Below, one piece after another: positions 44,794 through 63,789 of a DNA stretch of 64,000 bases. Both the position numbers and the translations under genes were made by a program. The notes below the pieces were generated by a model that saw nothing but the letters and a program-made list of their open reading frames with translations, was not told where the DNA came from and ran no database searches. This stretch comes from Cyclobacteriaceae bacterium (GTDB lineage Bacteria; Bacteroidota; Bacteroidia; Cytophagales; Cyclobacteriaceae). The first letter of the stretch is position 1; every line of letters begins with the position of its first letter. The stretch lies in NCBI GenBank assembly GCA_025455015.1, contig JALONI010000004.1, positions 1-64,000 of the forward strand. The letters run 5' to 3'.

Positions 44794-46104
44794 ATGGAAA
44801 CCAAATCCACCAGCCACGAAGTAAGCTCGAACGGAAGCACAAGAGTGATTCAGCGACTGGGTTGGTACATGATGGCCGTTTCGGTGGTGCTGGTGGCAGG
44901 GCTGTATTTTTTAAAGGTCGATCACTGGTATTACATTCTTCCGGCCTTTCCCGTGTTTGGCCTGGTACTTTGGATCAACAGCAGCCGCCATTATTTGCTG
45001 GCAAGGAATATTTTGATCATTGGCTCTTTTTTACTGTTTGTTTTTTGGGCTTTCACCCATAGACGAACCGGGGCCGAGTACGGCCTGATTGCGGTGTTTT
45101 GCTCCATACCGATGGTTTGCAAAGAAACGCGCCTGCTCATCATCGGTCTGGTGGTGGTCATGGTTACCTTGGTTGTCTACTTCTTGGTAGACCGCCTAAC
45201 CCCGTTTGTCCCGAACCCCACCATCAATTACCCATTGCTTTCCACGGCCGTGTTGGTAATGGCAGGCGGAAACGTATTTGTGCAGATTTTGCTTTACCGC
45301 AATACGCTGGTCAGATACATGAGCGCTATCAAGGAAAAAAACAGGGAGTTGGATCAAGTGTTGGAAGAAAAACGCCATACCCAAGTTGAGTTGGAGACGA
45401 GCAATGAGCAACTGCGTGCACTGACCACCCAATTGAATTGGATTGTCAAGCAAAAAACGCGTGAGCTGCAAACGTATATTGACGCCATCAATGTAAACAT
45501 TTACTCGAGTATTGTTGATCTGGACGGCAAGATCATGAAGGCCAACGCCCCGCTGCTGGAGGCTACCGGGTATGATTCGGACGAACTAATGGGACAAAGC
45601 TATCGGCTGTTCCATAGCCAAGAGCTGTCCGAACGTCAATATGCCCGTTTTGAGAGCAGCATCCGTCAGGGCACTGTGTGGCGGGGAGAAGTCAAGTACC
45701 GGACCAAGAGCAACGGATTTTTCTGGGGCGATCAAGTGGTCATCCCGATGCGAAATGCCGCCAATGAAATTTCGTATTTTCTCACGCTCGGATTGCCCAT
45801 TACCGAGCGCAAGGTGAACGAAGAAATGCGGAACAAGACCCTGTCCCTCCTACAGAAGCTCGCTTTCGAGACCTCGCACAACGTGCGCGGGCCAATTGCC
45901 CGCCTGCTGGGCTTGGTGAGTTTGATACAAAACAAAATGGTGGACGCGCAGGAAATCCAATACGTAATGAAGCAACTGGCCAATACGACCCATGAATTGA
46001 ACTTGGTGACAAGCGGGTTTGTCGAATTCTTGAATACACACCGCGACCTGCTCAATCAGCAGGGCGAAACGGGCTCAACACCCGAGCAAAAATTATCGAG
46101 ATGA
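44794..46104 (+). CDS. membrane PAS protein with DHp domain but no kinase domain
   Basis: 436 residues. About six membrane helices (residues ~20-185), a coiled coil (KEKNRELDQVLEEKRHTQVE), a PAS domain at about 230-345 (VDLDGKIMKANAPLLEATGYDSDEL), then a DHp-like helical hairpin with FETSHNVRGPIARLLGL (His362). The protein stops after the second helix; the N, G1 and G2 boxes of an HATPase_c domain are missing and no ATPase ORF follows. It could receive phosphate from the neighbouring kinase or act as a phosphotransfer protein. Its end overlaps the esterase gene by 12 bp. Confidence 0.82.
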   Translation: METKSTSHEVSSNGSTRVIQRLGWYMMAVSVVLVAGLYFLKVDHWYYILPAFPVFGLVLWINSSRHYLLARNILIIGSFLLFVFWAFTHRRTGAEYGLIAVFCSIPMVCKETRLLIIGLVVVMVTLVVYFLVDRLTPFVPNPTINYPLLSTAVLVMAGGNVFVQILLYRNTLVRYMSAIKEKNRELDQVLEEKRHTQVELETSNEQLRALTTQLNWIVKQKTRELQTYIDAINVNIYSSIVDLDGKIMKANAPLLEATGYDSDELMGQSYRLFHSQELSERQYARFESSIRQGTVWRGEVKYRTKSNGFFWGDQVVIPMRNAANEISYFLTLGLPITERKVNEEMRNKTLSLLQKLAFETSHNVRGPIARLLGLVSLIQNKMVDAQEIQYVMKQLANTTHELNLVTSGFVEFLNTHRDLLNQQGETGSTPEQKLSR

Positions 46105-46716
46105 AATCCGTTGCGCAACCTTCTGCAATTCTTCTTGCAAAATAGTATGCGGCCGTCCCGGGTAAATCTGGAGGTCAACTTTTGCCCCCATCGCCTCCAA
46201 TTGATTCTTTGATTGTTCGCTGCGTAGCAGCGGCACATGTGGATCATTCGGGCTGTTGGTCATCAACACGCGGGTGCCCGCAAAGTCGCCCGCATAGTTT
46301 TCGGTGTAGAGTTTATCGCCAATCAATCCCCCCGTCAACGCCATCACGCCTCCCCACGCGCGGGCGTGCCGTGTGGCAAACTCCAACGTGAGGCAGGCGC
46401 CTTGCGAAAAGCCGAGCAGATAGATGTGGGAAGAAGCGATGCCCGTTTTTTCGATGTCGGTTACAATGCCGGCTACCAACTGCAATGCACTGCTGAGCCA
46501 CGGTTCGTTTTGGGCGGGCGGGGCCAGAAAGCTGTAAGGATACCACGTACAGTTGGTGGCTTGTGGCGCCACGACATAAAAATCTTCTACCGGCAAATAG
46601 CTGCGCAGCGAAAGGATGTCTTCGGCAGATGCCCCGCGACCGTGCAGCATGATCAGGGCCTTCTTTGCCTGCGCCAGCGGCTTGCCCGCTTCCACGAGTT
46701 GTTTTGTGTGTTCCAT
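46093..46716 (-). CDS. MhqD-like alpha/beta hydrolase (carboxylesterase/phospholipase family)
   Basis: 207 residues. ALIMLHGRGA forms the oxyanion-hole strand, GFSQGA contains the nucleophile Ser, NSPNDPHVP the Asp and GRPHTI the His. In Bacillus, relatives (MhqD) are induced together with ring-cleaving dioxygenases (MhqE/MhqO) by quinones. Here the gene follows an MhqO-like dioxygenase, the same pairing. It is probably cytoplasmic. A tandem hairpin repeat separates it from the dioxygenase gene. Confidence 0.85.
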   Translation of the reverse strand: MEHTKQLVEAGKPLAQAKKALIMLHGRGASAEDILSLRSYLPVEDFYVVAPQATNCTWYPYSFLAPPAQNEPWLSSALQLVAGIVTDIEKTGIASSHIYLLGFSQGACLTLEFATRHARAWGGVMALTGGLIGDKLYTENYAGDFAGTRVLMTNSPNDPHVPLLRSEQSKNQLEAMGAKVDLQIYPGRPHTILQEELQKVAQRISSR

Positions 46717-46797: not shown

Positions 46798-47757
46798 TCA
46801 ATCATTAAACTTATCCGTCTGCAACACAATCGGCTGTAGTCCTTTTTCAATCTGATCGCGCGAAGGTTCATACCACTCGGGCAACTTCAGGCTCTCGCCC
46901 AGTTTCGATGGATGCTCATCGACAGCAAAGCCCGGAGGGTTGGTGGCCACTTCAAACAGAATACCGCCCGGTTCGCGGAAGTAAATGCTGTGAAAATACT
47001 GGCGGTCAAGCACGGGCGTCACGTTGTATCCTTTGCTCAACAATTTTTCGCGCACCTCCAACTGGGTGGCGTCATCGGGTGTGGCAAACGCCAGGTGGTG
47101 AATGGTGCCGCTGCCGCCCAGGCCGCGCATGGCATCGGGTGAGCAGACCACATCCACAAAATCTCCTGGCTGTTGGCTGGCCGAGTAACGGAAACGATTT
47201 CCTTTTTCCGCAACCAGCTTGTGGTCCATCCCCTCCAGCAGCAATGCGGCTGTGCGTTCATAACCCTCTTCCGAAAGCTCTACGCCATAAAATCCTTTCA
47301 CGGCATGCTCCAGCGGAATCTGTCCGTATGAAAAGCCCGGGCGCGAGTCGTTGCTGTTGAACACCAATTCCAACCCCAGGCCGTGCGCATCCTCAAAGTA
47401 GATGAACAACTCGCTGTCGAAGCGTTGCTGGGGCTCGGTGTGTTTGATGTTGAATTTCTTGAGTCGTGCGAGCCAGTAGTCGAGACTATTGGCGGGTACG
47501 GAGAATGACGTAACAGTCATCTGGCCTTTGCCGTGGCGGCCGCGCACCAATCCCGCGTAGGGGAAGAACGTCATGATGGTGCCGGGTGCTCCTGTTTCGT
47601 TGCCATAATATAGATGGTACACATCGGGCGCATCGAAGTTGATAGTTTTCTTTACCATGCGCAGGCCGAGGATGCCGGCATAGAAGTCGAGATTTTTTTG
47701 GGCATCGTCTGCCAGTGCCGTGACGTGGTGGATGCCGGTGATCAGGGATTTGCTCAT
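46798..47757 (-). CDS. MhqO-like ring-cleaving dioxygenase (VOC family)
   Basis: 319 residues with two glyoxalase/VOC modules. GIHHVTALADD gives a first His, TIHHLAFATPDD a second, and GILFEVATNPPGF the Glu; together they form a 2-His-1-carboxylate iron site. Relatives open hydroquinone or catechol rings in detoxification. The ABM gene upstream overlaps it by 4 bases, so expression is coupled. Confidence 0.87.
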   Translation of the reverse strand: MSKSLITGIHHVTALADDAQKNLDFYAGILGLRMVKKTINFDAPDVYHLYYGNETGAPGTIMTFFPYAGLVRGRHGKGQMTVTSFSVPANSLDYWLARLKKFNIKHTEPQQRFDSELFIYFEDAHGLGLELVFNSNDSRPGFSYGQIPLEHAVKGFYGVELSEEGYERTAALLLEGMDHKLVAEKGNRFRYSASQQPGDFVDVVCSPDAMRGLGGSGTIHHLAFATPDDATQLEVREKLLSKGYNVTPVLDRQYFHSIYFREPGGILFEVATNPPGFAVDEHPSKLGESLKLPEWYEPSRDQIEKGLQPIVLQTDKFND

Positions 47758-48053
47758 AATTCAGTTACGTTTTCAATCGTGTAGATTTTTATTTTCGCTT
47801 GGGCGGATAGCATCGGTTTTACTTTTTCCATGAACTCGTTGAAGTACCACTGGCTTACGTGAAAGTCGATGGCCGCCTGATCAGTCCATTCTTCAAAGAA
47901 CAAAAACCGGTTGGGCTCCATATGGCTTTCGTTGAACGTGTAGCTGATGTAGCCCGTTTCTTTTTGCGAGTGGGGCGCGATCCACAAGCACAGATCGATG
48001 AAATCCTTGCGGAATTCGGATTTGATGTACCAGTGGCCTGCAATTACTTTCAT
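47754..48053 (-). CDS. ABM-family monooxygenase, YgiN-like
   Basis: 99 residues with the dimeric alpha/beta-barrel pattern of antibiotic-biosynthesis/quinol monooxygenases (MKVIAGHWYIKSEFRKDFID; FLFFEEWTDQAAIDFHVSQWY). YgiN-type relatives oxidise quinols without a cofactor. Its stop overlaps the dioxygenase start by 4 bases (ATGA). The 129-bp region upstream carries the 33-bp shared element, so it probably has its own promoter. Confidence 0.82.
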   Translation of the reverse strand: MKVIAGHWYIKSEFRKDFIDLCLWIAPHSQKETGYISYTFNESHMEPNRFLFFEEWTDQAAIDFHVSQWYFNEFMEKVKPMLSAQAKIKIYTIENVTEL

Positions 48054-48127
48054 GGGTTTCGTATTGGTTGCTTTCCGTTTTTCGATTTTCGCTACTGTTT
48101 CAACCGGTTACCCAACCGCTTCGTTGT

Positions 48128-48160
48128 CCAGTTTGTTCGTCAGTTTTTGTAAAAAGTTCG
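48128..48160 (-). promoter_or_regulatory. 33-bp regulon element, copy 1
   Basis: On the plus strand it contains two GTTCG half-sites at 48135 and 48156, exactly 21 bp apart, and the core CAGTTTTTGTAAAAAGTTCG. It lies 75-107 bp upstream of the ABM gene. A second copy at 54541-54573 has 28 of 33 identical bases. It is probably an operator for a regulator that binds direct repeats. Confidence 0.6.
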
Positions 48161-48182
48161 CCTACTGAGGGTTTCGGGATTT

Positions 48183-48530
48183 TCATAGCTTAATAAACAA
48201 CGACTGCCGTTTCTGCGCGATCACATTTCGTGTTCGATGGCCCTTGCCGGTGGTGTCTTCCACCAGCAAAACATCGCCCCCTTTAAACTGTCTTTTTTCG
48301 CCCAAACTTGTTTCAATTTCGATTTCGCCATCCAGCAGCACGATAAACTGCCGGGCCGGAGCGGTGTGAAAGTCCCAATCATAGCCGGGTTCGTTTTCGC
48401 GGAAGATCATTTCTTGCACCGCCACCGCCTGCGACAAGCGGCCCACCATGCCCTGATCGGTAAGTCCTACCTCCACTTCTTCAAAGTGACTGTCTCCGTT
48501 GCCATCTGCAAAAATGCGTGTGTATTTCAT
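48183..48530 (-). CDS. cupin-domain protein
   Basis: 115 residues forming one cupin barrel (DWDFHTAPARQFIVLLDGEIEIET and GGDVLLVEDTTGKGHRT). Two His and one acidic residue could bind metal. The substrate is unknown. Its start overlaps the upstream small gene by 4 bases, placing it in the same operon as the SDR and Dps genes. It is also a known fold for quercetin-type or thiol dioxygenases, but no specific family is clear. Confidence 0.78.
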   Translation of the reverse strand: MKYTRIFADGNGDSHFEEVEVGLTDQGMVGRLSQAVAVQEMIFRENEPGYDWDFHTAPARQFIVLLDGEIEIETSLGEKRQFKGGDVLLVEDTTGKGHRTRNVIAQKRQSLFIKL

Positions 48531-48832
48531 CTTCGGATCGCCAATTTCCGGGCCAGTTCCTCTGAGAGAGGTTCGCTGTAGGCACCATAGGCATTGACGA
48601 GCACGCCCTTCAGCTTGTGTTTGGCAGACGAGATGGCATACAAAATCATTTCGTCATCTGGGTCGGTGCTACCCTCAAAACGATATACTTTATCGATGTA
48701 CAGTTCCTCCGGTTCGATGCGGGTATTTGCTCCCCGGCATTCAAGACACGTTTCGGCAAGATTGAAATCTTCCGTATAACCTTCTTTGCGCAGGGCGTCA
48801 ATCGCTTCGGTAAGGGTGTCAAAAGTTTGCAT
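48527..48832 (-). CDS. small conserved Bacteroidota protein often misnamed PRPP synthetase
   Basis: 101 residues (MQTFDTLTEAIDALRKEGYTEDF; VYRFEGSTDPDDEMILYAISS; GVLVNAYGAYSEPLSEELARKL). This family is frequently labelled phosphoribosylpyrophosphate synthetase in databases, but it is far too short and has no PRPP-binding motif, so no such function is claimed. ATG 48832 replaces the ORF-track start at 48961, which lies inside the SDR gene. It overlaps the cupin by 4 bases. Confidence 0.75.
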   Translation of the reverse strand: MQTFDTLTEAIDALRKEGYTEDFNLAETCLECRGANTRIEPEELYIDKVYRFEGSTDPDDEMILYAISSAKHKLKGVLVNAYGAYSEPLSEELARKLAIRR

Positions 48833-48845
48833 GGCGGTTGTTTGG

Positions 48846-49547
48846 TTAGGTTTTTTTGGAAAGGAGATAGTGTACCACTTTTTCCTGACGCAAGCCCACT
48901 TGATTTGCGATGTGCTCACCAATTTCCTCCGGAGTGTACCAGTCGGGTTGCCCATGCCCATGTTTGAGCCGATCGCGCGTTTTCATGGGTCCTAAAATCA
49001 GCTCGAATACCTGCATACCCGTTTTATCCACTTCCTTGGCCAATGTTTGGATGAGTGACTTCTGTGCTGCGGCCGCCATGGCAACCGGGCCGGCCATGGG
49101 GTAGGGTTCATCGGCACTAAAGCCGTTGATGTGGAAGTAATACCCTTCCGTTGGATTCAACAATGGCACCAACGTTTTGATGGCAAAGAAATGGGATGTG
49201 AGGTTGTCGTTGAGAATCCGTTGCCATTGTTCGGTAGGATAACTATACACAGGCGCCCCCTGATGCCATCCACCCAACGAGGCCACCGCGATGTCTATCT
49301 GCTTCCACTCCTTTTGAAGAAATGCCGCCAGTTGCTGACCGGCCGCTTCGGTGTCGACCGAGCCGAGGTGCGTCACCAGCTTGCCGGTGTGTACATCGCT
49401 TACGTACTCGCGAAGGCGGTCGATTTTATGCGCACTGCGGGTAGGCACCACTACGGTGGCTCCCTCGCGCAGCAGCGTTTTTACAATTCCTTCGCCTACG
49501 CCACCTGCTCCGCCCAGCACCACGGCTGTTTTCCCTTGTAGTTTCAT
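48846..49547 (-). CDS. SDR-family protein with altered catalytic motif
   Basis: 233 residues. KTAVVLGGAGGVGEGIVKTL is the Rossmann glycine motif for NAD(P). ASLGG and NDNLTSHFF follow at the expected places. The usual Ser-Tyr-x3-Lys triad is not found: the segment reads GPVAMAAAAQKSL, where Tyr is replaced by Ala. It may be a non-catalytic or unusual SDR. It follows Dps by 4 bases. A relic of a second copy lies at 63.2 kb, also after a Dps gene. Confidence 0.8.
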   Translation of the reverse strand: MKLQGKTAVVLGGAGGVGEGIVKTLLREGATVVVPTRSAHKIDRLREYVSDVHTGKLVTHLGSVDTEAAGQQLAAFLQKEWKQIDIAVASLGGWHQGAPVYSYPTEQWQRILNDNLTSHFFAIKTLVPLLNPTEGYYFHINGFSADEPYPMAGPVAMAAAAQKSLIQTLAKEVDKTGMQVFELILGPMKTRDRLKHGHGQPDWYTPEEIGEHIANQVGLRQEKVVHYLLSKKT

Positions 49548-49551
49548 CAGA

Positions 49552-50028
49552 CTAGTGGGTTAAATGCGCCCGCAGCATCCACGCCATCTTCTCGTGTGCT
49601 TCCATCAGCCCGGTAATGAAGTCGCTCGTACCTGCATCCTGGTAGTCGGTGGCAAACCGGTTTATGTTTTCGCGCAGGTACATGATCACCTGCTCGTGGT
49701 CGGTGAGCAACTCTTTGATCAGTCCGGCACTGTTGTTTTTCTCGCGGGTTGCTTCCGTCAGGTGCGTGAGCGACAGATAACTTTTCAGCGTAGCCGGGGC
49801 AAAATGACCGATTGCGCGGATGCGCTCCGCCACATCGTCCATCATCTCGTCCAACTGTTCGTATTGGCTTTCAAAAAATTTGTGCATGGCATGAAAGTCG
49901 GGGCCTTCCACGTTCCAATGCGCATGTCGCGTTTTGGTGTAGAGCACGAACTCATCGGCCAGCAGTTTGGCCAGCGCCTCGGCTACCTTTTGCCGGTTGC
50001 TTTCCGAAATCCCAATTTGTGTTTGCAT
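49552..50028 (-). CDS. Dps-family ferritin-like DNA-protection protein, copy 1
   Basis: 158 residues. The ferroxidase-site pattern is complete: HAHWNVEGPDFHAMHKFFESQYEQL and DDVAERI. Dps forms a 12-subunit shell that oxidises and stores iron with peroxide and protects DNA. It lies in the electrophile-stress block, 5 bases after the porin-like gene and 4 before the SDR gene. It is roughly 80 percent identical by eye to the Dps at 63.3 kb. Confidence 0.93.
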   Translation of the reverse strand: MQTQIGISESNRQKVAEALAKLLADEFVLYTKTRHAHWNVEGPDFHAMHKFFESQYEQLDEMMDDVAERIRAIGHFAPATLKSYLSLTHLTEATREKNNSAGLIKELLTDHEQVIMYLRENINRFATDYQDAGTSDFITGLMEAHEKMAWMLRAHLTH

Positions 50029-50033
50029 GGTGA

Positions 50034-51389
50034 TTAGTATTTGAATTGTAATGTGAGTGCAGAGAAGAAAACGTCTCGTCCGGTACTAACTTCCTTCAGG
50101 TACGGCCCCGCGTGGAACCAAGTAAACTCCGGCACAATGCTCAGGTGTTTGCTGGGTGTGATCTCGGCATTGATGCCCAGTTGCTCGCCAATCAACCGCG
50201 CACGGCTATTTTCGCCCGAATAGATCAACGCTACATTCGGGCCATAGATACCATCGCTGAGGCTGTGCCGCCAGAACAAATCCAGATCGGCCGACAAGGT
50301 AACGTTTTGCTGGACTTGCCATTTAACACCCGGGTGTACATCCACCAGGTTGGCCGGGCCGATGAGTGCCGCCAATCCAAAGTACGCACCCCGCGGATAC
50401 AGCGGGTTGAACGTGTTCAGTTGATCGTCATTGCGGTTGTTGTCGCCACTGATGACTTCGGTTTTCAGTCCGACCCAGAAAGGCTTTTTGCCATTAGTGA
50501 GTTGGTAGTTGGCATGCAGCGAAGCCGTCCAGGCCTGGATACGACCGGCTGAAAATTCCCCAAACTGATACACCGCCTCGAAATCGTAATCCCATCGTGC
50601 AGCTTTGCTCCACCAGCGCGTGCCGATGGAATGGCGCAGCTCGCGGCCGATACCGGCATCGAACGTGGCCCGATCCCGGTTCAATCCCAAATAGTAGAGA
50701 TCGATGTTTTTCAAGATCGGGACGGCTTTTTGAATGATGTAAATACCCCAAAGCGCTTCTTCGCGGTTGATCTCATCATCCACCACACCTAGCCGCTGCT
50801 GCACAGGCGTACTGTAAAATAAGTCTACAGACGTGTTGTGTTGTTGCATGATCAGTTTGGCCGCATCAAAATTGAGACGGTTGTTTGGCCCCTCGCGCAC
50901 CGCTACTAAACGTTGTGACCCGTATAATAATTCCTGCCGACCGGCACGCAATGTGATGGCGTTGGAAATCCGGATATCCGCAAAAAGCTGGTGAACCGAA
51001 AACCGGTTCTCGTCTATCCTTCGAATGGGCGTTACCCGGCCGTTGGCAAACGTGCTGTTGAATTGCGCAAAGAAGCGAAGCGACTTGTTAACCCGAACAT
51101 CGCCATGGAACAGAAAGCGCGAGTAAAACGCGGTGTATTCGCGCACGGGCCCATCGCCCCAGTCTTCGTTCACAAAGTTTTGCGGCAGGTAGCGCACCTC
51201 GCCCCCAAACGAGGCATAGCCGGTATCACCCATGCGGGTCATCTTAAATTTTTCATAGGCTTTTTTTGGCGAGTCGTGCGGCAGCGAAGACAGGTCATCG
51301 TTGTACCGAAGCAGTTTAAATGCTTGTCCGTAACCTACCTGTACGAGCGATGTCATCGCGAACAGCCAAAGCCACCGGCACGCAACCAC
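50034..51389 (-). CDS. alginate-export-type outer-membrane barrel
   Basis: About 451 residues. Signal peptide (VACRWLWLFAMTSLVQVGYGQ), then an 18-strand-type barrel of the Alginate_exp family with repeated aromatic-girdle strands, GRQELLYGSQRLVAVREGPN and a C-terminal Tyr (ALTLQFKY). It would be a selective outer-membrane channel. Start: the ORF-track TTG at 51434 lies inside the upstream transporter gene. GTG 51389, 10 bases after that gene's stop, gives a proper signal peptide. Confidence 0.82.
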   Translation of the reverse strand: MVACRWLWLFAMTSLVQVGYGQAFKLLRYNDDLSSLPHDSPKKAYEKFKMTRMGDTGYASFGGEVRYLPQNFVNEDWGDGPVREYTAFYSRFLFHGDVRVNKSLRFFAQFNSTFANGRVTPIRRIDENRFSVHQLFADIRISNAITLRAGRQELLYGSQRLVAVREGPNNRLNFDAAKLIMQQHNTSVDLFYSTPVQQRLGVVDDEINREEALWGIYIIQKAVPILKNIDLYYLGLNRDRATFDAGIGRELRHSIGTRWWSKAARWDYDFEAVYQFGEFSAGRIQAWTASLHANYQLTNGKKPFWVGLKTEVISGDNNRNDDQLNTFNPLYPRGAYFGLAALIGPANLVDVHPGVKWQVQQNVTLSADLDLFWRHSLSDGIYGPNVALIYSGENSRARLIGEQLGINAEITPSKHLSIVPEFTWFHAGPYLKEVSTGRDVFFSALTLQFKY

Positions 51390-51399
51390 ACCGGCACGC

Positions 51400-51843
51400 T
51401 TAAAATTTTCGGATGATGACCACCCCAACCACAATCAACGCAATGCCGAGCACCCGCCACGCGTTGATACTGTGTTGCGCGTGCACGAGGACGTTGAAGT
51501 GATCCAGGGCCACGGAAATAATCAACTGCCCGGCCACAATCAATCCGAACGTGAGCGCGGGACCGAGTTTTGGAAAGGCCAGCACCACGGTGGTCACGTA
51601 AATGGCACCGAGCGCACCGGCCACCCACGTCACGGTGGGCACGTCTTTCAGGCTTTGCGTGTGCAGCGGCTGCCGCGTAACGGCCACGTACACAAGCAAG
51701 GCCACCAGGCCCACGGCAAACGAGATCAGCGAAGCCCACACCGGACTATGAATGGCTTGCCCCATTCTGGTATTGAGGCCCGCTTGTATCGGCAGGAGCG
51801 AACCTGCGATAAACACGGCTATGATCCAGGGTAGTTTTTCCAT
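51400..51843 (-). CDS. YdcZ/DUF606-type DMT transporter
   Basis: 147 residues with about five membrane helices (IIAVFIAGSLLPIQAGLNTRMG; VWASLISFAVGLVALLVYV; GLIVAGQLIISVALDHF). It matches the short DMT family often called YdcZ, which probably works as a dimer in the inner membrane. The substrate is unknown. The porin-like gene starts just after its stop, so inner- and outer-membrane transport may be linked. Confidence 0.8.
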   Translation of the reverse strand: MEKLPWIIAVFIAGSLLPIQAGLNTRMGQAIHSPVWASLISFAVGLVALLVYVAVTRQPLHTQSLKDVPTVTWVAGALGAIYVTTVVLAFPKLGPALTFGLIVAGQLIISVALDHFNVLVHAQHSINAWRVLGIALIVVGVVIIRKF

Positions 51844-51886
51844 ATAATAACTAATGTTGAAGCGCAGCCCCAGGAGTCTGATGATC

Positions 51887-51923
51887 AGCCTACTGCTGCT
51901 GGTTACTGGTTGCTGGTTTCTGG
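51887..51923. repeat. degenerate CTGGTT tandem repeat
   Basis: Imperfect tandem copies (GGTTACTGGTTGCTGGTTTC) lie between the amidohydrolase stop and the transporter gene. It is probably a neutral intergenic repeat. Confidence 0.4.
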
Positions 51924-53714
51924 CTACTGCTTTTGATAGCCTCCATAAAAATTCGCAGGCGACCAGGCGGGCATAGCTTTCGGAACGGCAGGAGCGAAGT
52001 TTACGAACTCACCCTGACCAAAAACCACTTTACCATTCACTACTGTAAGCAACGATTCCAGATTCAGAATGTCTTCGTCTTTTACCGTAAGGAAATTTTC
52101 TGTGAGCATGGCAAAGTCAGCGAGGTAGCCCGCCTTCAGTTGGCCGCGGTTGTGTTGCAGATTCACCAGGGCTGCACTGCCTTCGGTGAACAGGCGCAAG
52201 GCCGTTTCGCGATCCACGATGTTTTCTTTTGCCGCCAACTGGGTACCGCCAATAGTTTTGCCGGTTGTCAACCAATACAAACCAATCCACGGGTTGTATG
52301 AACTCACACGCGTACCGTCCGAGCCCATGCCCACGCGAATGCCCATGTCGAGCATTTTCTTTACGGGAGGCGTAAACTCGGCTGCCTTCCTGCCATAGCG
52401 CTGAATAAAGCTTTCACCTTGAAAGGCCATGCGATGCTGAATGGCGATGCCTCCGCTCAGGGCATTGATGCGTTTAAGATTTTCATCCGATACGGTTTCG
52501 GCATGATCGAAAAACCAAAGCAGGCCATTGAGTGGCGTTTCCTTATTCACCTCTTCGATGACGTTCAGAAAGCGCGTGATGCTTTCGTTGTAGGTGGCAT
52601 GCAGGCGGAAGGGCCACCGGTTTTTCACCAGCAGCGAAATCACTTCTTTCAGTTGTGCTTCCATGCGCGGGTTTAATTCCGGCCGCGGCTGGTCGAAGTT
52701 TTCAAAGTCGGCCGCACTGGCCACTAGGTTTTCACCACCCCCCTGTACGTAGTACTCCAACTTTTTAGCTCCAAACTTTTTTGCCGGCTGCTCGTGCCCA
52801 TCGTGTGGGCCAATGGCCACTTCGCTGATCCACTTCGTATAGTCGGCCGGTTCGCTGCCTGCTTTTTGCGCAAACAAATAGTACGGTAGGCGCAACGTCA
52901 GCTCACCTTTTTGGTCGAGCAGGGTGGTGATGCCGTAGTCGCCCGGGTAATTCTGAAAACCACCGCCCGCATCCATCACCGAAGTGATGCCGAGCCGGTT
53001 CAACTCCAGCATAAACAGCTTGGTTGAGTTGATCTTCTCTTCGTCATTCAACTCGGGAAGCTTTGCCAGCGTGGAGTACAACAAAAAGGCATTGGGTTCG
53101 GCCACCAGCAAGCCTGTAGGTTTTCCATCGCTGTCTTTTTGAATCAACCCACCGGGTGGGTTGGGGGTGTTCTCATCTATCCGCAACGCTTTCAGTCCTG
53201 CCTGGTTGAGATAGGCATGTCCATACAAATAGAGGATAAACGTGGGCACATTCCCCGTAGCCTCGTTGATCTCGGTCAGTGTTGGCAACCGTTTTTCTTC
53301 AAATTGATAGGCATTCCATCCGCCCACCACGCGCACCCACTGCCCCTCGGGTGTTCGCTGCGCCTGTTCTTTCAGCATCTGCAGTGCGCGCGCCAACGAG
53401 CGTACACCGTCCCACCGTAATTCGGTGTTGTAAAATCGCCCACCTCGGATCACGTGCAGGTGCGAGTCAAACAAGCCCGGTATGATCGTTTTCCCTTTGG
53501 CATCAATCACTACCGTATTTTTCTTTTTTAACTTCACTATCTCGGTGGATGACCCCACCCGTAAGATCGTACCCTCCGCCACCGCGATGGCCTCGGCTTT
53601 GGGTCGGGCGGGATCCAACGTCACGATGTTGGCGTTGTACACGATGAGCGATGGCGTTTGTGCGTCCGCCCGCCAAGTTGCAAGCAGCGCAAGTAATACG
53701 AGTATGGATCGCAT
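51924..53714 (-). CDS. exported YtcJ-like amidohydrolase
   Basis: 596 residues. Signal peptide MRSILVLLALLATWRADAQ, then an amidohydrolase_3 fold: TIIPGLFDSHLHVIRGG has the HxH metal ligands, FRLHATYNES and WFFDHAETV further His, and MGSDGTRVSSYNPW the last Asp. ATG 53714 opens the signal peptide; the ORF-track start at 53771 falls within an inverted repeat. It would hydrolyse an amide or cyclic substrate in the periplasm. It follows the isochorismatase-like gene. Confidence 0.85.
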   Translation of the reverse strand: MRSILVLLALLATWRADAQTPSLIVYNANIVTLDPARPKAEAIAVAEGTILRVGSSTEIVKLKKKNTVVIDAKGKTIIPGLFDSHLHVIRGGRFYNTELRWDGVRSLARALQMLKEQAQRTPEGQWVRVVGGWNAYQFEEKRLPTLTEINEATGNVPTFILYLYGHAYLNQAGLKALRIDENTPNPPGGLIQKDSDGKPTGLLVAEPNAFLLYSTLAKLPELNDEEKINSTKLFMLELNRLGITSVMDAGGGFQNYPGDYGITTLLDQKGELTLRLPYYLFAQKAGSEPADYTKWISEVAIGPHDGHEQPAKKFGAKKLEYYVQGGGENLVASAADFENFDQPRPELNPRMEAQLKEVISLLVKNRWPFRLHATYNESITRFLNVIEEVNKETPLNGLLWFFDHAETVSDENLKRINALSGGIAIQHRMAFQGESFIQRYGRKAAEFTPPVKKMLDMGIRVGMGSDGTRVSSYNPWIGLYWLTTGKTIGGTQLAAKENIVDRETALRLFTEGSAALVNLQHNRGQLKAGYLADFAMLTENFLTVKDEDILNLESLLTVVNGKVVFGQGEFVNFAPAVPKAMPAWSPANFYGGYQKQ

Positions 53715-53726
53715 AAAAAGTTGACT

Positions 53727-53786
53727 AATGACAATTGGCAGTTGACAATTGACAATAGTAAAGGTTGTCAACTGCCAATTGTCATT
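53727..53786. repeat. 22-bp inverted repeat with 16-nt loop
   Basis: TGACAATTGGCAGTTGACAA (53729-53748) is the perfect reverse complement of 53765-53784, and two further bases pair on the outside. The hairpin lies in the 75-bp gap between the isochorismatase-like and amidohydrolase genes. It is probably a palindromic intergenic element that could block or protect the downstream message. Confidence 0.75.
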
Positions 53787-53789
53787 TTG

Positions 53790-54485
53790 TTATTTCTTTC
53801 CTTCCTGCGCGTTAAACATTTCCTTCGCATACTTGATGCCCAGGCCGTAACCACCACCGTGTTCTTTGGCAATGTTGTTGGTGGCATCGTAGGTGGCCGG
53901 GCGTGCCCAGTCGCGTTGCAGCTCCAACAGATATTGTAAACTCGTCATCGGTTGTGCACCGGCCTGTACCATGCGCATCACGGCCATGTCGTGCGCTTCT
54001 TTGCTCACGCCCCCGCAGGCATCGGTAATCACATATACTTCATATCCTTCTGAAAGGGCACTGAGGGCCGGGCCCACGATGCACACTTCTGTCCACAGGC
54101 CGGCCAATACAATTTTCTTTTTGCCTTTTCCGGTGATGGCCTTGTACGCATTTACATCTTCCCAGGTATTCATCGTGGTGCGGTCGATTATTTTTTCATT
54201 AGGAAATACTTCCGTGATCTCTGAAAAGATCGGGCCGCTGAATGATTTGGCCGCTACGGAGGTAATCACAATAGCGGTGTTGAATGTTTTCGATGCTTTG
54301 GTGATCATGGCGGCATTGTTGCGGATGGCATCAATGCTATGCGATTGTGTAGCAAACGCCATTTGAGGCTGATGATCGATGAGTACCAGCACGTGGTTGT
54401 TGGGGTCGATCAGCTTAGGCGAGGGTTTCTGGGCGAAGGCTACGAAAGACAAAGCCACCAGGGAAACGACAAGTAATTTTTTCAT
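53790..54485 (-). CDS. exported isochorismatase-like cysteine hydrolase
   Basis: 231 residues. Signal peptide MKKLLVVSLVALSFVAFAQ, then the isochorismatase fold: VLVLIDHQPQM carries the catalytic Asp and GLWTEVCIVGPAL the Cys. RTTMNTWED resembles the YcaC subgroup. A secreted member is unusual since most are cytoplasmic. The substrate is unknown. It is the first gene of the electrophile-stress block and has copy 2 of the 33-bp element about 56 bp upstream. Confidence 0.83.
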   Translation of the reverse strand: MKKLLVVSLVALSFVAFAQKPSPKLIDPNNHVLVLIDHQPQMAFATQSHSIDAIRNNAAMITKASKTFNTAIVITSVAAKSFSGPIFSEITEVFPNEKIIDRTTMNTWEDVNAYKAITGKGKKKIVLAGLWTEVCIVGPALSALSEGYEVYVITDACGGVSKEAHDMAVMRMVQAGAQPMTSLQYLLELQRDWARPATYDATNNIAKEHGGGYGLGIKYAKEMFNAQEGKK

Positions 54486-54540
54486 GACAATAGATGGTTG
54501 GTTTTACGATACTTAACCGCACCCCGGCTGCATACGTTTG

Positions 54541-54573
54541 CCAAATAGTTCGGCAGTATTTGTAAAAAGTTCG
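54541..54573 (-). promoter_or_regulatory. 33-bp regulon element, copy 2
   Basis: GTTCG half-sites at 54548 and 54569, 21 bp apart, with the core CAGTATTTGTAAAAAGTTCG. It is 28 of 33 identical to copy 1 at 48128-48160 and in the same orientation relative to the genes. It lies 56-88 bp upstream of the isochorismatase-like start codon. Confidence 0.6.
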
Positions 54574-54744: not shown

Positions 54745-55899
54745 ATGCCTTACAAGTTAGTTTCAGCGGACGCTCAAAAAGTAGTGTTTCATCGGTCGAG
54801 TGTCGTTGGCGGAATGATTCTCGCCTTGGTAGTGGGCAGCATCTTTGTGGGCGTGGGCGTGTGGGTTCATTTCGGGCTACCAGAGCAGCATCCTTCATTT
54901 ATACTGTTAAAAATCGTCTTTCCTTTTTTGGGTATCATGGCTATCCTCGCAGGTTTGCGGGCGCCCCAGCATGCCCGCGTGAGCATACCGGAAGCCATCA
55001 CCTTTGATAACCAAAAAGGAGCGGTTGTCATTGAGATGGCGGTTGGCACGCGCGAAATGGCCTATATCCCCTATGCGGATATCGCGAAATTCGACATACA
55101 TGTTCAACGGAGCAGATCATCATCCAATAAACAGGTAGAGTACACGTACCACACGTTACTTCGAAAAAGAGATGGGGGCGAGTGGCTTCTTACACAGCCC
55201 TCGTCCCACAGTAAGGCAGCAGAGACCATCGAGAAATTAAATCAGTACGTTGATTTCACGCGGCCCTTTACCGTCACGACCCCACCGTTTGTCACAGATA
55301 AAATTTCGCGACTGGAGGGGGCGGACAAGACCATCATACATTGGCAAAATAAGGTGTCGTTTATGAGCGTGGCATTTGTGGCGGTGGTTGCGGTGGTGTT
55401 TATTGCGGTAATAGGCTTTTCAGTGGCTTCAGGCACGGACGGACCGTTGGCCTACCTTGGCGGCATTTCCATTGGAATTACGGTTCTGATTTTTATGGTG
55501 GTCATGGCGTTTGCGATACGATACTTGATTAAGCAGGCTACCACCCGATATGCCGTTGCCATCGGTACCCGCGAGGTGGAATATTACGAATTCTCAAAAT
55601 CGAACGGAGTAATGCGCAACAGCAAAAGCATCCCGCTCACCCAGGTGAAGGGGGTGGTCTATAATTTTTCACCCACAAAAGGGAATTTGAGTCCGGGGCT
55701 AAAAATAATGACAGAGAAAGACATGGCTGCCCATGAGGCAGCGGCCCACGATCCGGTACTGGCACTTAAGAATTTGTTTTCGGGCAAAAACAAGCCGATG
55801 ACGCTGGCTATTCATTCGCTCACGCCCGTTGAATGTCTGCAACTGGAAAATTGGCTTCAAGAGCTGATTAAAAAGAAGGGACATGAAAGCGTACAGTAG
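54745..55899 (+). CDS. membrane protein of unknown function
   Basis: 384 residues. Four hydrophobic helices in two pairs (residues ~20-70 and ~205-265) flank a soluble domain that repeats a pleckstrin-like pattern twice: EAITFDNQKGAVVIEMAVG and TREVEYYEFSKSNGVMRN. The two halves look like an internal duplication of a helix pair plus beta domain. No family is recognised. It lies just before the Crp/Fnr gene on the same strand. Confidence 0.65.
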   Translation: MPYKLVSADAQKVVFHRSSVVGGMILALVVGSIFVGVGVWVHFGLPEQHPSFILLKIVFPFLGIMAILAGLRAPQHARVSIPEAITFDNQKGAVVIEMAVGTREMAYIPYADIAKFDIHVQRSRSSSNKQVEYTYHTLLRKRDGGEWLLTQPSSHSKAAETIEKLNQYVDFTRPFTVTTPPFVTDKISRLEGADKTIIHWQNKVSFMSVAFVAVVAVVFIAVIGFSVASGTDGPLAYLGGISIGITVLIFMVVMAFAIRYLIKQATTRYAVAIGTREVEYYEFSKSNGVMRNSKSIPLTQVKGVVYNFSPTKGNLSPGLKIMTEKDMAAHEAAAHDPVLALKNLFSGKNKPMTLAIHSLTPVECLQLENWLQELIKKKGHESVQ

Positions 55900-55959
55900 T
55901 CGGGTGGGGCAAGTTTGGCTTTTTTGTGATTTCGCAAAAGCACCAGGCAGCGGCTACCT

Positions 55960-55967
55960 TATATTTG
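55960..55967 (+). promoter_or_regulatory. -7 element of the Crp/Fnr gene
   Basis: TATATTTG matches TAnnTTTG exactly, 3 bases before GTG 55971. This supports the later start and a leaderless mRNA. Confidence 0.5.
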
Positions 55968-55970
55968 GGG

Positions 55971-56582
55971 GTGAAAACGGTTGAACAACGTTTACGTGCC
56001 TACCTCGAATCTGTGGGCGGACTGCCTGCTGATACGTGGCAGATATTGACAGGATATCTTGAGGTTGACGTGTACAAACGCGGAGAGCCGCTTTGGAAGG
56101 CGGGTGAGCGATCTGACAAAATCTATTTCATTGGCAGCGGACTGGTGCGTTTGTTCTTTTTTGACGAGAAAGGACAGGAGGTGACTGTTCATTTTCTTAC
56201 CCATGATAAATTTTTGGCGGATGTCGACAGCCTTCATTCGGGCACCCCTTCTTCCGTATCGGCCGTGGCTGAAGAGGTAACCGAAGTGGCGGTGTTTAAA
56301 CCTTCTGTGTTGAAGAAACTGGAAGCAGAAATTTACGAGTGGCCGAGTCTTTTACGCAAGGTGAGCGAAAAGTCATTGTTCGAAAAAGTAAAGATGCGCA
56401 ACGAGTTGTTTCAATGTGAGGCAAAAGAGCGCTACCTGTTGTTTCTGAATTATTTTCCCAACGTCACCAACCAGGTGAAGGCGGCACACGTGGCCTCCTT
56501 TCTCAGCATGTCGCAGTACACACTCAGCCACATCAAAAAAGAGCTGGTACAAACCGATTTTTTGCGAAACCGCAAAAACTAG
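55971..56582 (+). CDS. Crp/Fnr-family transcription regulator
   Basis: 203 residues. The N-terminal cyclic-nucleotide-type beta barrel is clear (GEPLWKAGERSDKIYFIGSGLVRLFFFDEKGQEVTVHFL). The C-terminal helix-turn-helix is short but present (HVASFLSMSQYTLSHIKKEL). There is no Cys cluster for an iron-sulfur centre, so it is not an Fnr-type oxygen sensor. The effector is unknown. GTG 55971 is chosen over the ORF-track start at 55926 because a -7 element sits between them. It could regulate the epimerase gene or the stress block next door. Confidence 0.84.
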   Translation: MKTVEQRLRAYLESVGGLPADTWQILTGYLEVDVYKRGEPLWKAGERSDKIYFIGSGLVRLFFFDEKGQEVTVHFLTHDKFLADVDSLHSGTPSSVSAVAEEVTEVAVFKPSVLKKLEAEIYEWPSLLRKVSEKSLFEKVKMRNELFQCEAKERYLLFLNYFPNVTNQVKAAHVASFLSMSQYTLSHIKKELVQTDFLRNRKN

Positions 56583-59809: not shown

Positions 59810-60148
59810 TCAGTTTTTTGTTTTCCGCCTGAATTCCGCCTCCGCGAGCTTGGGTGCCGTGCGCACCCGCACTTTCTCGGGCCCCTCGGCTTGCCTCGAT
59901 TTGCTTTTGGACAAACCAAATCCGAAATTCAAATAACCTACGCTTTCGTAGAAATAGGACTTGGTTGTTTTGTCGTACTTGATCGGAGCATTGAGAATGC
60001 GCTTCATCAGTGCAAGATACTGATAGAGCGTACTCTCCGAGATGTCCAAGCGCCTGGCCAGGTCGCGGGGTGTTCCGGTGGCGCGCATACGTATCAATTG
60101 GTCAAGTCGGATTAACTTATCGATGACCTTTTCAAACTGCCTGCTCAT
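59810..60148 (-). CDS. small HTH DNA-binding protein
   Basis: 112 residues. An N-terminal helix-turn-helix of the HTH_11/DeoR type (LDQLIRMRATGTPRDLARRLDISESTLYQYLALMKR) is followed by an about 60-residue tail with a basic, Lys/Arg-rich end. No ligand domain is present. It is probably a local regulator. The target is unknown. It lies upstream of the carbonic anhydrase gene on the same strand, 78 bp apart. Confidence 0.72.
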   Translation of the reverse strand: MSRQFEKVIDKLIRLDQLIRMRATGTPRDLARRLDISESTLYQYLALMKRILNAPIKYDKTTKSYFYESVGYLNFGFGLSKSKSRQAEGPEKVRVRTAPKLAEAEFRRKTKN

Positions 60149-60305
60149 AAAGGCTCATTCCTTTCAATTTAACGATGTTGGATTTTTTTTTGCGAGGCCC
60201 TGCGCAACACGCGCTGCTGCCGGCATGCGGCAACTATTTTTTGCGGGGCCTGCCGAAGCCGAGCCACGGGGGCCGGCCAGCATTTAGGCAAACGAAAGGG
60301 AGGAG

Positions 60306-60572
60306 TCAGATGCGCAGCACGCGTATCCGCAAAAAGAGAGACGCTACTACCGCGGTTGTGCGCGTTTGGAACGCGACCCGGGAGGCAACAGAAATGAACG
60401 AGAGCGGAGACGGGGCGGCCGATATGCGCTGCGAGGCCGTAACCCTTTTTTCGGATTCATGCGCGCGGCTCTGGGCAACTAACTCCACTTTTTCTTCTTT
60501 GCCCTCGGCCACGGGGGCCTGAAGCAAATTGAGGGGGAGGAAAAACAACCAGAAAATGGCTACCCATTTCAT
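60306..60572 (-). CDS. possible 88-residue exported protein
   Basis: MKWVAIFWLFFLPLNLLQAP looks like a signal peptide. The rest is charged and low in complexity (EGKEEKVELVAQSRAHESEKR) and ends in a short hydrophobic-basic run. The ORF-track extension to 60866 runs into the AraC gene and is rejected. No family is recognised and the reading could be accidental. The neighbouring 60149-60305 and 60573-60747 segments hold no gene I can support. Confidence 0.38.
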   Translation of the reverse strand: MKWVAIFWLFFLPLNLLQAPVAEGKEEKVELVAQSRAHESEKRVTASQRISAAPSPLSFISVASRVAFQTRTTAVVASLFLRIRVLRI

Positions 60573-60747
60573 CGCGTCACGTGCGTTTGTCCTTCTTAAC
60601 GATAAGCGTTTGCAAAATGTTTTGGGGGCGTACTCAAAAAATGGCTGGCTCCGGCACGGTTTAAGGGCCGCAAAAATCCCCGGAAGGGCACCGGATAAAC
60701 CGCCCCCGGGGGGCAGATTTCGCCCCGCCCCGCGGGCCGCGTAAATT

Positions 60748-61668
60748 TTACATGGACCGGAACCGGCTGTTGCGTACCTCCAAGGGTGTAAACGAGGTGT
60801 TTTGTTTGACAAAATTGGCCAGGTGTGCCTGGTCGGTGAAGTGGTAGGCGCGCGCAATGTCGGCAATGGGTTGGTCGGTGTAGCGCAGCATGGTTTTCAC
60901 TTCTGACAGCAGCCGCTCGTTAATGATGGCTTTGGGCGATTTACCCGTTACTTCCGAGACACTTTCGATCAGGTACTTGGGGCTGATGTGAAGCGTATCG
61001 GCAAAGTCGCTCACCTTCTTAAACGTGCGCAGCTCGGTGTTTACGAGTTTTTTAAAGAGGTAAGCAATTTCTGCTTTGCGCGAATGAACAGGAGGGGGAT
61101 CCAAGGTTTCGGCCGCGTGTTTGTCAAATACCTCTTGTGTTTTGTGAAACAGTATCTGTGTGTAGAGCGACAGTACGGGCAGCGAAGTGACAATGGGCTT
61201 GGTGTACTCTTCCAGCATGCGCTCGTATGTCTCCGCCAATTCGGCATACTCGCTGTCCGACACAATGTAAAACGACTCCTTCGTGGGGTCGAGAAATGAA
61301 AAGTCTTTACGGGTGTTGGAGTTGTTTTGGCAGATGTTCAGAAAATCTTCTTTGAAAAGCACCACGTAGCCATCCCAATCGGGGTCGCTTTGCCATTGAA
61401 TAAGCTGGCCGGGTTTGAATACGATCAGGGCGTTGAGTTGGTGGGTGGCATATTCTTTTTCGTAAAACGAAATGGTAAAGTTGGCCTTGCGCATCAAGCC
61501 GATCTGGTAAAATGACAGGCGGAACAGCGGCATATTTCCACGCACCTCTTTCCCGATGTCACGGAAACGAAATACGTGCACATCGCTGTGCTGGGTGCGC
61601 ACCTGCCCGCCCGCAGCATGGTGCAGGTCGTCAAACTCATGAAATTTATGGATGGATTGAAAAGGCAT
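60748..61668 (-). CDS. AraC-family transcription regulator
   Basis: 306 residues. The N-terminal cupin-like sensing domain spans about 20-170 (ATHQLNALIVFKPGQLIQWQSD). The C-terminal double helix-turn-helix is clear (FKKVSDFADTLHISPKYLIESVSEVTGKSP and QPIADIARAYHFTDQAHLANFVKQNTSFTPLE). AraC proteins usually bind direct repeats about 21 bp apart, the spacing of the half-sites in the 33-bp elements at 48.1 and 54.5 kb. ATG 61668 is chosen. No co-transcribed gene fixes the effector. Confidence 0.85.
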   Translation of the reverse strand: MPFQSIHKFHEFDDLHHAAGGQVRTQHSDVHVFRFRDIGKEVRGNMPLFRLSFYQIGLMRKANFTISFYEKEYATHQLNALIVFKPGQLIQWQSDPDWDGYVVLFKEDFLNICQNNSNTRKDFSFLDPTKESFYIVSDSEYAELAETYERMLEEYTKPIVTSLPVLSLYTQILFHKTQEVFDKHAAETLDPPPVHSRKAEIAYLFKKLVNTELRTFKKVSDFADTLHISPKYLIESVSEVTGKSPKAIINERLLSEVKTMLRYTDQPIADIARAYHFTDQAHLANFVKQNTSFTPLEVRNSRFRSM

Positions 61669-61745
61669 CTTTGCTTCGAAAATAGAGAAAAGCACCCATG
61701 GGCGAAAGGGCGGCCGGGCGCCAACGAGCGGGACCACGCCCACGG

Positions 61746-63188
61746 TTACTCAGTGCGCGCTGGCGAGGCTGCTGGATTTCGCGTTGACCGGATCAATTCT
61801 TGTGCCTTCTCTAGGTCTTTATCGCGAAAGCTTACGCGATCGGTGATCGTATAGGAGACGGGGTGGTGGGGCATTACGCCCCGGCCGGTGTCTTTGAGGC
61901 GGAGTTGATGAATGGTCTGATACACGTTGAACTCCACGTGTAAACGTGAGGCTGGCAGCACGATGATGCCGCTGGCTGACGAGCGAGAGGCATATTCGCT
62001 GCCTCCCGTTTCTTCACCAATGATTACCGCTTGGCGCTTGTGTTTCAGATAACTCGCCACCAGGCTGGCCATGGAGAACGTTCCTCCGTTGGTCAGCACG
62101 TACACCGAACCATGAAAATGATTGCGCGTGCGCTTTTTGAACAGGAATGCGTGATTCCACCCGTGCCTGCTCGGAAACTGAATAGGGTTGGCAGTAAACA
62201 ATACCGGGGTGATTCTTTCCCAAAAAGAGGCTTTAAACCGAGGGTTAATGATGTGTAGGTTGGGTTTGCGCGTAATGACAAACGGGACGATGGCCTGCGG
62301 AAGCAAGTGCGTGAGGAAGTAATTGCCTTTGAAAATGCTGCCGCCTCCATTATCGCGCAGGTCCAGCACGAGGTGGTGTACTTGTTCGTGGCGCAGGTGC
62401 CGGAATGCCTGGCGAAACGCCCTTCGCTGTTTTTTACCATCAAAGTTGTCAATGTCCAGGATGCGGGTCAGCGAGTCAAAGGCAGGCTCGTAAAGCTGAA
62501 GTCCATCGAACTGTTTCACCAGGCGCACCTGACGATAGCCCGCGATGGGCAATTTGGGCAGGTCTTTGGTCAAGGTAGGTCGCAAGGTCAGCGTATCCCG
62601 CTCGCCTGCCATCGTTTGAACGGCCACCCGAAAATGGTCGGCCGCGCCAAACAGCCGGTAGTAGTTGATGTCGATGTCCTTTTCCAGCGTGCTGTACTTG
62701 TGTGTTTCGTTGCGCCCATCGGAGAAGACGATCTCGCGCACTGCGCTGGCCACCGAGTCAATGGGATGGCCGTTGATGCTTATGATTTCGCTGCCGATGT
62801 AGCGGGCAGTATCAGGCGCTTTATAGGAGCGCACGTAGAACTTCCCGGAATCTGCCCACAGCGTGAGCGGAAGTAAGCGAAGTGAGTCGTTTCTTGTTTT
62901 AGCATACACGTACATGTGGCCACAGCCCACGTGGGCCACTACGCGCCTCACCACGTTGGTAAACTCACGCGGCAGCAAAGGAGTTTCGGTATCCTTTTTG
63001 GCGGCCCCAAAAATCGAGTCCCATGCGGCCCGGGGTGTGTAGTCATCGTATGCCGGGTGCCATTTGCGCAGGTATTTTTTCAAGTGGTCTAAGTCGCGCT
63101 GCATGTCGCTGGGTTGCAACCGCACCTGACCGTAGCCGAGGCCTGCCGAGGCCATCCAGAGAAAAAGGGCAAATAACGTTTTCCGCAT
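61746..63188 (-). CDS. exported S41-family peptidase
   Basis: 480 residues. Signal peptide MRKTLFALFLWMASAGLGYGQ, a helical N-terminal domain, a PDZ-like middle (GSEIISINGHPIDSVASAV) and the tail-specific protease core: HLVLDLRDNGGG, TNGGTFSMAS with the likely nucleophile Ser, and GEETGGSEYA. The Lys partner is not certain. It would process periplasmic proteins. It follows the SDR relic and Dps copy 2 on the same strand. Confidence 0.84.
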   Translation of the reverse strand: MRKTLFALFLWMASAGLGYGQVRLQPSDMQRDLDHLKKYLRKWHPAYDDYTPRAAWDSIFGAAKKDTETPLLPREFTNVVRRVVAHVGCGHMYVYAKTRNDSLRLLPLTLWADSGKFYVRSYKAPDTARYIGSEIISINGHPIDSVASAVREIVFSDGRNETHKYSTLEKDIDINYYRLFGAADHFRVAVQTMAGERDTLTLRPTLTKDLPKLPIAGYRQVRLVKQFDGLQLYEPAFDSLTRILDIDNFDGKKQRRAFRQAFRHLRHEQVHHLVLDLRDNGGGSIFKGNYFLTHLLPQAIVPFVITRKPNLHIINPRFKASFWERITPVLFTANPIQFPSRHGWNHAFLFKKRTRNHFHGSVYVLTNGGTFSMASLVASYLKHKRQAVIIGEETGGSEYASRSSASGIIVLPASRLHVEFNVYQTIHQLRLKDTGRGVMPHHPVSYTITDRVSFRDKDLEKAQELIRSTRNPAASPARTE

Positions 63189-63315: not shown

Positions 63316-63789
63316 TCAGTGAAGGTGCGCACGCAGCATCCACGCCATCTTTTCGTGCGTCTCCATCAGGCCGGTGATAAAGTCGCTGGTGCCCGCATCG
63401 TGGTAGTCGGCAGCAAAGCGGTTGATGTTTTCGCGCAGGTGCATGATGATTTGTTCGTGATCGGTGAGCAGCTCGCTGACAAAGCCGCGACTGTCGTTTT
63501 TTTCGCGGCTGGCCTCCGTCAGGTGGGTGAGGGCCAAGTAGCTTTTGAGGGTGGCAGGGGCGTAATGACCCAGGGCGCGGATACGCTCGGCCACATCGTC
63601 CATGATTTCGTCCAGTTGCTCGTATTGGTTTTCAAAAAATACGTGCATGGCATGAAAGTCCGGGCCTTCTACATTCCAGTGGGCATTGCGCGTTTTGGTG
63701 TAAAGCAAGAATTCATCGGCCAGCAGCTTGCTTAACTCCGCGGCTACCGCTTGGCGGTTTTGGTCGCTGATTCCAGTTTGAATAGTCAT
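63316..63789 (-). CDS. Dps-family protein, copy 2
   Basis: 157 residues, same layout as copy 1 with the ferroxidase residues kept (NAHWNVEGPDFHAMHVFFENQYEQL, DDVAERI). The two copies differ at about 29 positions by my count and at many third codon positions, so the duplication is not recent. It lies upstream of the SDR relic. Confidence 0.93.
   Translation of the reverse strand: MTIQTGISDQNRQAVAAELSKLLADEFLLYTKTRNAHWNVEGPDFHAMHVFFENQYEQLDEIMDDVAERIRALGHYAPATLKSYLALTHLTEASREKNDSRGFVSELLTDHEQIIMHLRENINRFAADYHDAGTSDFITGLMETHEKMAWMLRAHLH

Follow-up and report, generated by a model that had tools for sequence, protein, structure and literature searches.

The araI1-I2 operator of araBAD consists of two direct half-sites placed two helical turns apart. 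AraC binds I1 and I2 as half-sites (PMC10547716), and araI1-I2 shares with other tandem operators of the AraC/XylS family an arrangement of ~17-bp direct half-sites, 21 bp apart and upstream of a promoter. Direct repeats with a 21-bp period were also predicted as motifs of AraC-type hybrid two-component sensors (HTCS) in Bacteroides thetaiotaomicron, among them 16-bp sites with a 5-bp spacer and 12-bp sites with a 9-bp spacer (PMC3878776). A second group of described systems concerns detoxification genes. In Firmicutes, MhqO- and MhqD-type genes belong to quinone-stress regulons controlled by the MarR-type regulator MhqR; those of Bacillus subtilis and Staphylococcus aureus place a MhqO/MhqE-type dioxygenase and a MhqD-type carboxylesterase under one MarR-type repressor (PMC6798810).

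The locus described here combines features of both groups. It lies in a window of 64 kb (the window being the whole stretch of DNA that was analysed, from a member of the Cyclobacteriaceae) and consists of an eleven-gene block with two copies of a direct-repeat element and an AraC-type gene nearby. As in the MhqR regulons, a MhqO-type dioxygenase and a MhqD-like carboxylesterase would answer to one regulator, but in five genomes the element is linked to a regulator of the AraC type, and the block adds Dps, an isochorismatase-like hydrolase, an amidohydrolase, YdcZ, and an outer-membrane barrel. No MarR protein was found among the window genes scanned. We infer, with a probability of about 0.8, that both elements are bound by the AraC protein encoded at 60748-61668, which probably acts as an activator of the two transcription units. 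The regulon is undescribed, but of a well-known, conventional kind; literature on AraC with mhqO, isochorismatase, or Dps contained no description of the element, most subscription papers lying outside that search. The features are as follows.

60748..61668, minus strand: AraC/XylS-family regulator, proposed binder of both elements (Pfam HTH_18 and HTH_AraC)
54535..54573, minus strand: element 2, candidate operator in front of the isochorismatase operon, scoring 31.1 bits against a matrix built solely on sites of other genomes; its direct half-sites, 54573-54557 and 54552-54536, are spaced by 21 bp
53790..54485, minus strand: isochorismatase-like (YcaC-type) hydrolase with a signal-like N-terminal sequence, opening unit A (Pfam, NCBIfam, and PDB comparisons)
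51924..53771, minus strand: amidohydrolase (Pfam Amidohydro_3), unit A
51400..51843, minus strand: YdcZ/DMT membrane protein (Pfam), unit A
50034..51434, minus strand: outer-membrane barrel (Pfam Alginate_exp), unit A
49552..50028, minus strand: Dps/ferritin-like protein (Pfam), unit A
48846..49547, minus strand: short-chain dehydrogenase (SDR; Pfam), unit A
48527..48961, minus strand: small protein, no Pfam family, unit A; conserved at 60% in the block of Thermoflexibacter ruber and at 52% near that of the Saprospiraceae
48183..48530, minus strand: 115-aa protein without a Pfam match, closing unit A and called cupin-like by our own reading
48122..48160, minus strand: element 1, candidate operator in the 129-bp gap between the cupin-like and ABM genes, scoring 23.8 bits against the matrix built solely on sites of other genomes; its direct half-sites are 48160-48144 and 48139-48123
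47754..48053, minus strand: ABM (LsrG-like) monooxygenase, first gene of unit B (Pfam and PDB comparison)
46798..47757, minus strand: MhqO-like ring-cleaving dioxygenase, unit B (Glyoxalase; B. subtilis MhqO 3oaj, E=5e-90)
46093..46716, minus strand: phospholipase/carboxylesterase (Abhydrolase_2), unit B; like MhqD in family and position

The block was annotated by Pfam, NCBIfam, and PDB comparisons. Its dioxygenase also matches 2,6-dichloro-p-hydroquinone 1,2-dioxygenase (4huz, E=2e-53), and the match of its esterase to the NCBIfam MhqD model is far below the model cutoff. The small protein of unit A probably starts at an internal site, MQTFDTL, and the cupin-like protein is conserved alongside MhqO in several genomes. 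All intergenic gaps in the block are short, except for the one that holds element 1. A terminator scan of the block's strand between units A and B found none; read-through from A to B is thus possible, and unit B may also be read from unit A. No Rfam RNA element was found in the 44-64 kb part of the window. The Dps gene of unit A has a closely similar counterpart 13 kb away (63316-63789), which lies upstream of an S41 peptidase gene and araC and is not preceded by a full copy of the element.

Both elements are noncoding, one located before the isochorismatase gene and the other before the ABM gene. Read directly on the minus strand, the core of element 1 (48160-48128) is CGAACTTTTTACAAAAACTGACGAACAAACTGG and that of element 2 (54573-54541) is CGAACTTTTTACAAATACTGCCGAACTATTTGG; 28 of the 33 bases are identical. 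Each contains CGAAC (GTTCG on the plus strand) twice, 21 bp apart. The next start codon is 107 bp from the first base and 75 bp from the last base of element 1, and 88 bp and 56 bp, respectively, in the case of element 2. The initial annotation had described these as 33-bp elements on the minus strand, sharing 28 bases, lying 56-107 bp upstream of start codons, carrying GTTCG twice at a distance of 21 bp, and opening the two parts of an eleven-gene block. Direct reading bears out all of this except the length. The conservation and the internal repeat span ~39 bp (48160-48122 and 54573-54535), and the unit is taken as ~39 bp because the second half-site runs past the 33 bp.

The longer unit has a regular anatomy. 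Two ~17-bp half-sites, with a consensus of about YGAAYTWTYTAC..AA, are in direct orientation exactly 21 bp apart. Seven sites, from the window and other genomes, align without gaps over 39 bp, and their summed self-similarity peaks at a lag of 21, where 66 of 112 positions match. Shuffled controls gave 30.2 +/- 4.5 matches at that lag (maximum 46 in 2000 shuffles), and none of the other lags tried (8-31) exceeded 50. The likeness between the two half-sites extends over ~15 bp. Compared with araI1-I2, the half-site sequence and the regulated genes differ, and no looping site was found.

The elements are rare in the genome. The source assembly (3,419,346 bases in 154 contigs, 96% complete) was scanned by pattern searches: allowing up to 3 mismatches yielded no copies besides elements 1 and 2, and neither did a looser 18-base core with 1 mismatch allowed. 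Furthermore, no comparable pair of matches appeared in 100 dinucleotide shuffles of the window. With two copies only, both before the block, the elements are not a dispersed repeat, and random occurrence in genes, the other outcome by which the initial annotation would have been undone, is likewise excluded for this genome.

The candidate regulator has the build of its family. The protein is 306 aa long from a conserved start, MPFQS; the listed ORF begins at 61743 with GTG. Its C-terminal part carries a double helix-turn-helix (HTH; Pfam HTH_18, 1.8e-15; HTH_AraC, 4.9e-11), with sequence and fold matches to the DNA-binding domains of AraC, MarA, Rob, and AraT. A predicted model of moderate confidence (pLDDT 69.6) combines an N-terminal beta-barrel sensor domain with the double HTH, as in other AraC/XylS-family regulators. 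Its fold matches include ToxT, Rns, RhaR, AraC, and MarA, and in the same moderate-confidence model the N-terminal domain was matched by Foldseek to the regulatory domains of AraC and RhaR (2arc, 5u93, 5u9e). In contrast to the HTCS, which are membrane hybrid two-component glycan sensors of the same phylum with the same direct-repeat period, this is a stand-alone protein, and no sus-like genes are present. The araC gene lies ~6.3 kb upstream of the isochorismatase gene in the same orientation, with six other genes between them. A tblastn search of the protein against plasmids gave no match.

What links this protein to the elements? The evidence comes from other genomes. Two genomes with the long block, T. 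ruber (L047) and a Saprospiraceae MAG (L049), were found in a set of 80 loci around MhqO relatives, and an AraC profile search of 391 genomes of the order added two further orthologues, G710 (L153) and G597 (L154). The orthologues in these four Bacteroidota genomes are 46-57% identical to the window protein, and the five proteins form one group in a 14-row tree (support 85/97). In T. ruber (57%) and the Saprospiraceae MAG (52%), araC is directly upstream of the isochorismatase gene and the element sits in the gap between them. In G710, too, the element lies at the 3' end of araC ahead of the isochorismatase gene, here overlapping the final araC codons; a second copy immediately follows the outer-membrane barrel gene, 0.25 kb before the contig ends, with no target gene in view for that copy. 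In G597, whose AraC is 46% identical and whose site is the most divergent, araC is divergent from mhqO with the element in the gap between them; the locus is otherwise a ribosomal-protein region. The element-bearing araC loci share only araC and the isochorismatase or mhqO targets.

In other words, all five genomes with the AraC orthologue have the element, and it is absent from block-gene loci that lack the orthologue. The orthologue occurs in five genomes only, so this linkage rests on five loci. Two loci illustrate the absence. G001 has a 79%-identical isochorismatase together with the amidohydrolase, a best AraC of just 32-33%, and no element; another locus (L046) has the ABM-MhqO-esterase unit in common with the window, and the element is missing there too. 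These findings support the earlier proposal of one regulator for both parts of the block and make the AraC protein, one of two candidates named at that stage, the best by far.

Counts and scores agree with this distribution. Searched with up to 2 mismatches, the core gave seven matches in the five orthologue genomes, all at the block or in the araC-mhqO gap, and four in five control genomes, all inside ORFs. The matrix that scores the two window sites as listed above was built from the five non-window sites, and its next best match in the 64 kb scores -1.2 bits. A matrix of all seven sites gives 44.9-58.2 bits in the orthologue loci, the scored sites themselves being part of it; leave-one-out scores of 26.8-54.3 bits are for that reason the fairer figures. 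Loci that lack the orthologue (around MhqO, isochorismatase, AraC paralogues, and chance matches, 1.36 Mb in all) reach at most 15.6 bits with the seven-site matrix. Several candidate copies were rejected. Pattern matches in G001 (L003) and G124 (L004) fall inside coding sequence. High scores beside AraC paralogues (L119, L121) lie at the start of the paralogue coding sequences and drop with the seven-site matrix. A T. ruber match (C42:32943, L130) falls within a different AraC-type gene's coding sequence, and its score over the full 39 bp is low.

How would the protein act at these sites? In the proposed model, one face of the DNA would present both half-sites to the protein, at a distance of 21 bp or two helical turns, and the second of them would adjoin the upstream box of the promoter. 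An effector would meet the N-terminal beta-barrel domain, upon which the protein would probably activate transcription. Site 2 would then drive the isochorismatase, amidohydrolase, YdcZ, outer-membrane barrel, Dps, SDR, small protein, and cupin-like genes, and site 1 the ABM, MhqO, and esterase genes. A -7-like match, TAnnTTTG, occurs ~60 bp from the element start (p=0.006), a weak signal that is poor at window site 1; it would place the -33 region at the second half-site, tentatively as for class II activators. We infer that the protein binds these sites, that it activates and does not repress, and that its effector is an aromatic compound, a quinone, or some other electrophile. The block thereby gains a testable candidate operator and a named candidate regulator for a hitherto uncharacterised Bacteroidota combination of MhqO-type ring cleavage, Dps, and envelope transport. 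With a candidate operator defined, a simple reporter could serve to find the effector. The protein also adds a stand-alone AraC example to a phylum in which 21-bp direct-repeat motifs were predicted for hybrid two-component sensors.

The block of eleven genes is likely involved in the breakdown of toxic aromatic or quinone-like compounds. The label of electrophile stress appears plausible by analogy, since the dioxygenase resembles B. subtilis MhqO. Judged by family, the block enzymes would fit quinone or hydroquinone handling, with aromatic catabolism equally open. A strong contender, at slightly less than even odds, is that the elements are indeed bound by the AraC protein, while the purpose of the regulon is to break down an aromatic compound such as a lignin fragment and not to counter electrophile stress. 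This reading is compatible with the AraC operator model and differs in effector and purpose alone. One unit holds the transport-type YdcZ and outer-membrane barrel genes together with the amidohydrolase and the isochorismatase-like hydrolase, and these genes speak for catabolism or export. Among NCBIfam models matched over the full length of the AraC protein, the best, though far below its cutoff, is HpaA, a 4-hydroxyphenylacetate regulator. In Paenibacillus, the mhqPOD operon is induced by DDVA and was linked to lignin-fragment catabolism (PMC12673573). Against this stand the Dps gene of unit A, which suggests a stress component, and the role of MhqO/MhqD-type genes as quinone-stress genes in Firmicutes (PMC6798810). 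It is possible, if on balance rather doubtful, that a stand-alone AraC-type activator of Bacteroidota senses quinones or related electrophiles, replaces the MarR-type MhqR in the control of MhqO/MhqD-type detoxification, and co-controls Dps and the envelope transport pair.

The repeats might belong to another kind of regulator. LytTR proteins likewise recognise direct repeats, whose period of 21 bp (9 bp + 12 bp) fits that of the elements, and GTTCG presumably fits the loose LytTR core. Published LytTR operators resemble the elements as direct repeats of this period upstream of the promoter, with 9-bp repeats separated by 11-13 bp and positioned upstream of the -35 (PMC6193735). However, the half-site likeness of ~15 bp exceeds the 9-bp LytTR box, and predicted motifs of Bacteroides AraC-domain regulators share a 20-21 bp period (PMC3878776). 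Outside the window, the element invariably has the AraC orthologue as its neighbouring regulator, and the loci have no further gene in common apart from the targets; no LytTR gene was found linked to the element, and the scan of window genes between 46 and 64 kb gave no LytTR domain. Binding by a LytTR-family response regulator is thus very unlikely.

Just two copies in a genome, most alike in their first 26 bp, could also stem from a duplication by chance or from a mobile repeat, or could be a promoter motif that no dedicated regulator reads. This is highly improbable, as orthologous copies sit beside araC in four other genomes, of families other than the window's, where the surrounding DNA has diverged, and the source genome has no third copy. 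Least probable of all is control by the Crp/Fnr protein (55926-56582), the other regulator initially named, which is encoded near site 2 in the window, but as the second gene of a unit transcribed away from the block, with no such gene found in the other element-bearing loci, and whose family binds palindromes, unlike the direct repeat of the element. That unit begins at 54745-55899 with a gene, divergent from the block, for a 384-aa protein with hydrophobic stretches and no Pfam family, followed by the Crp/Fnr and epimerase genes.

The common layout across the loci is araC, the element, and one long operon. The window departs from it, with araC ~6.3 kb off and the mhqO unit under its own copy of the element. 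Another Cyclobacteriaceae MAG (L035, 7989-9638) encodes MhqO (94%) and the esterase (83%) in an unrelated context. Its DNA similarity to the window is confined to a stretch that starts at about the mhqO start codon (window 47766 to 46126), and no element is present there. An mhqO-esterase pair that already existed may thus have come under the control of the element in the lineage of the window.

In Aquiflexum lacus and G001 (L050; L155, 5954-9918), a distant AraC (31-33%) is encoded upstream of an mhqO-esterase pair without the element, which suggests that related AraC-mhqO pairs with another DNA specificity exist. Finally, the gaps around the window araC (60140-60760 and 61640-61760) are, by eye, unusually G+C-rich compared with the A/T-rich elements.
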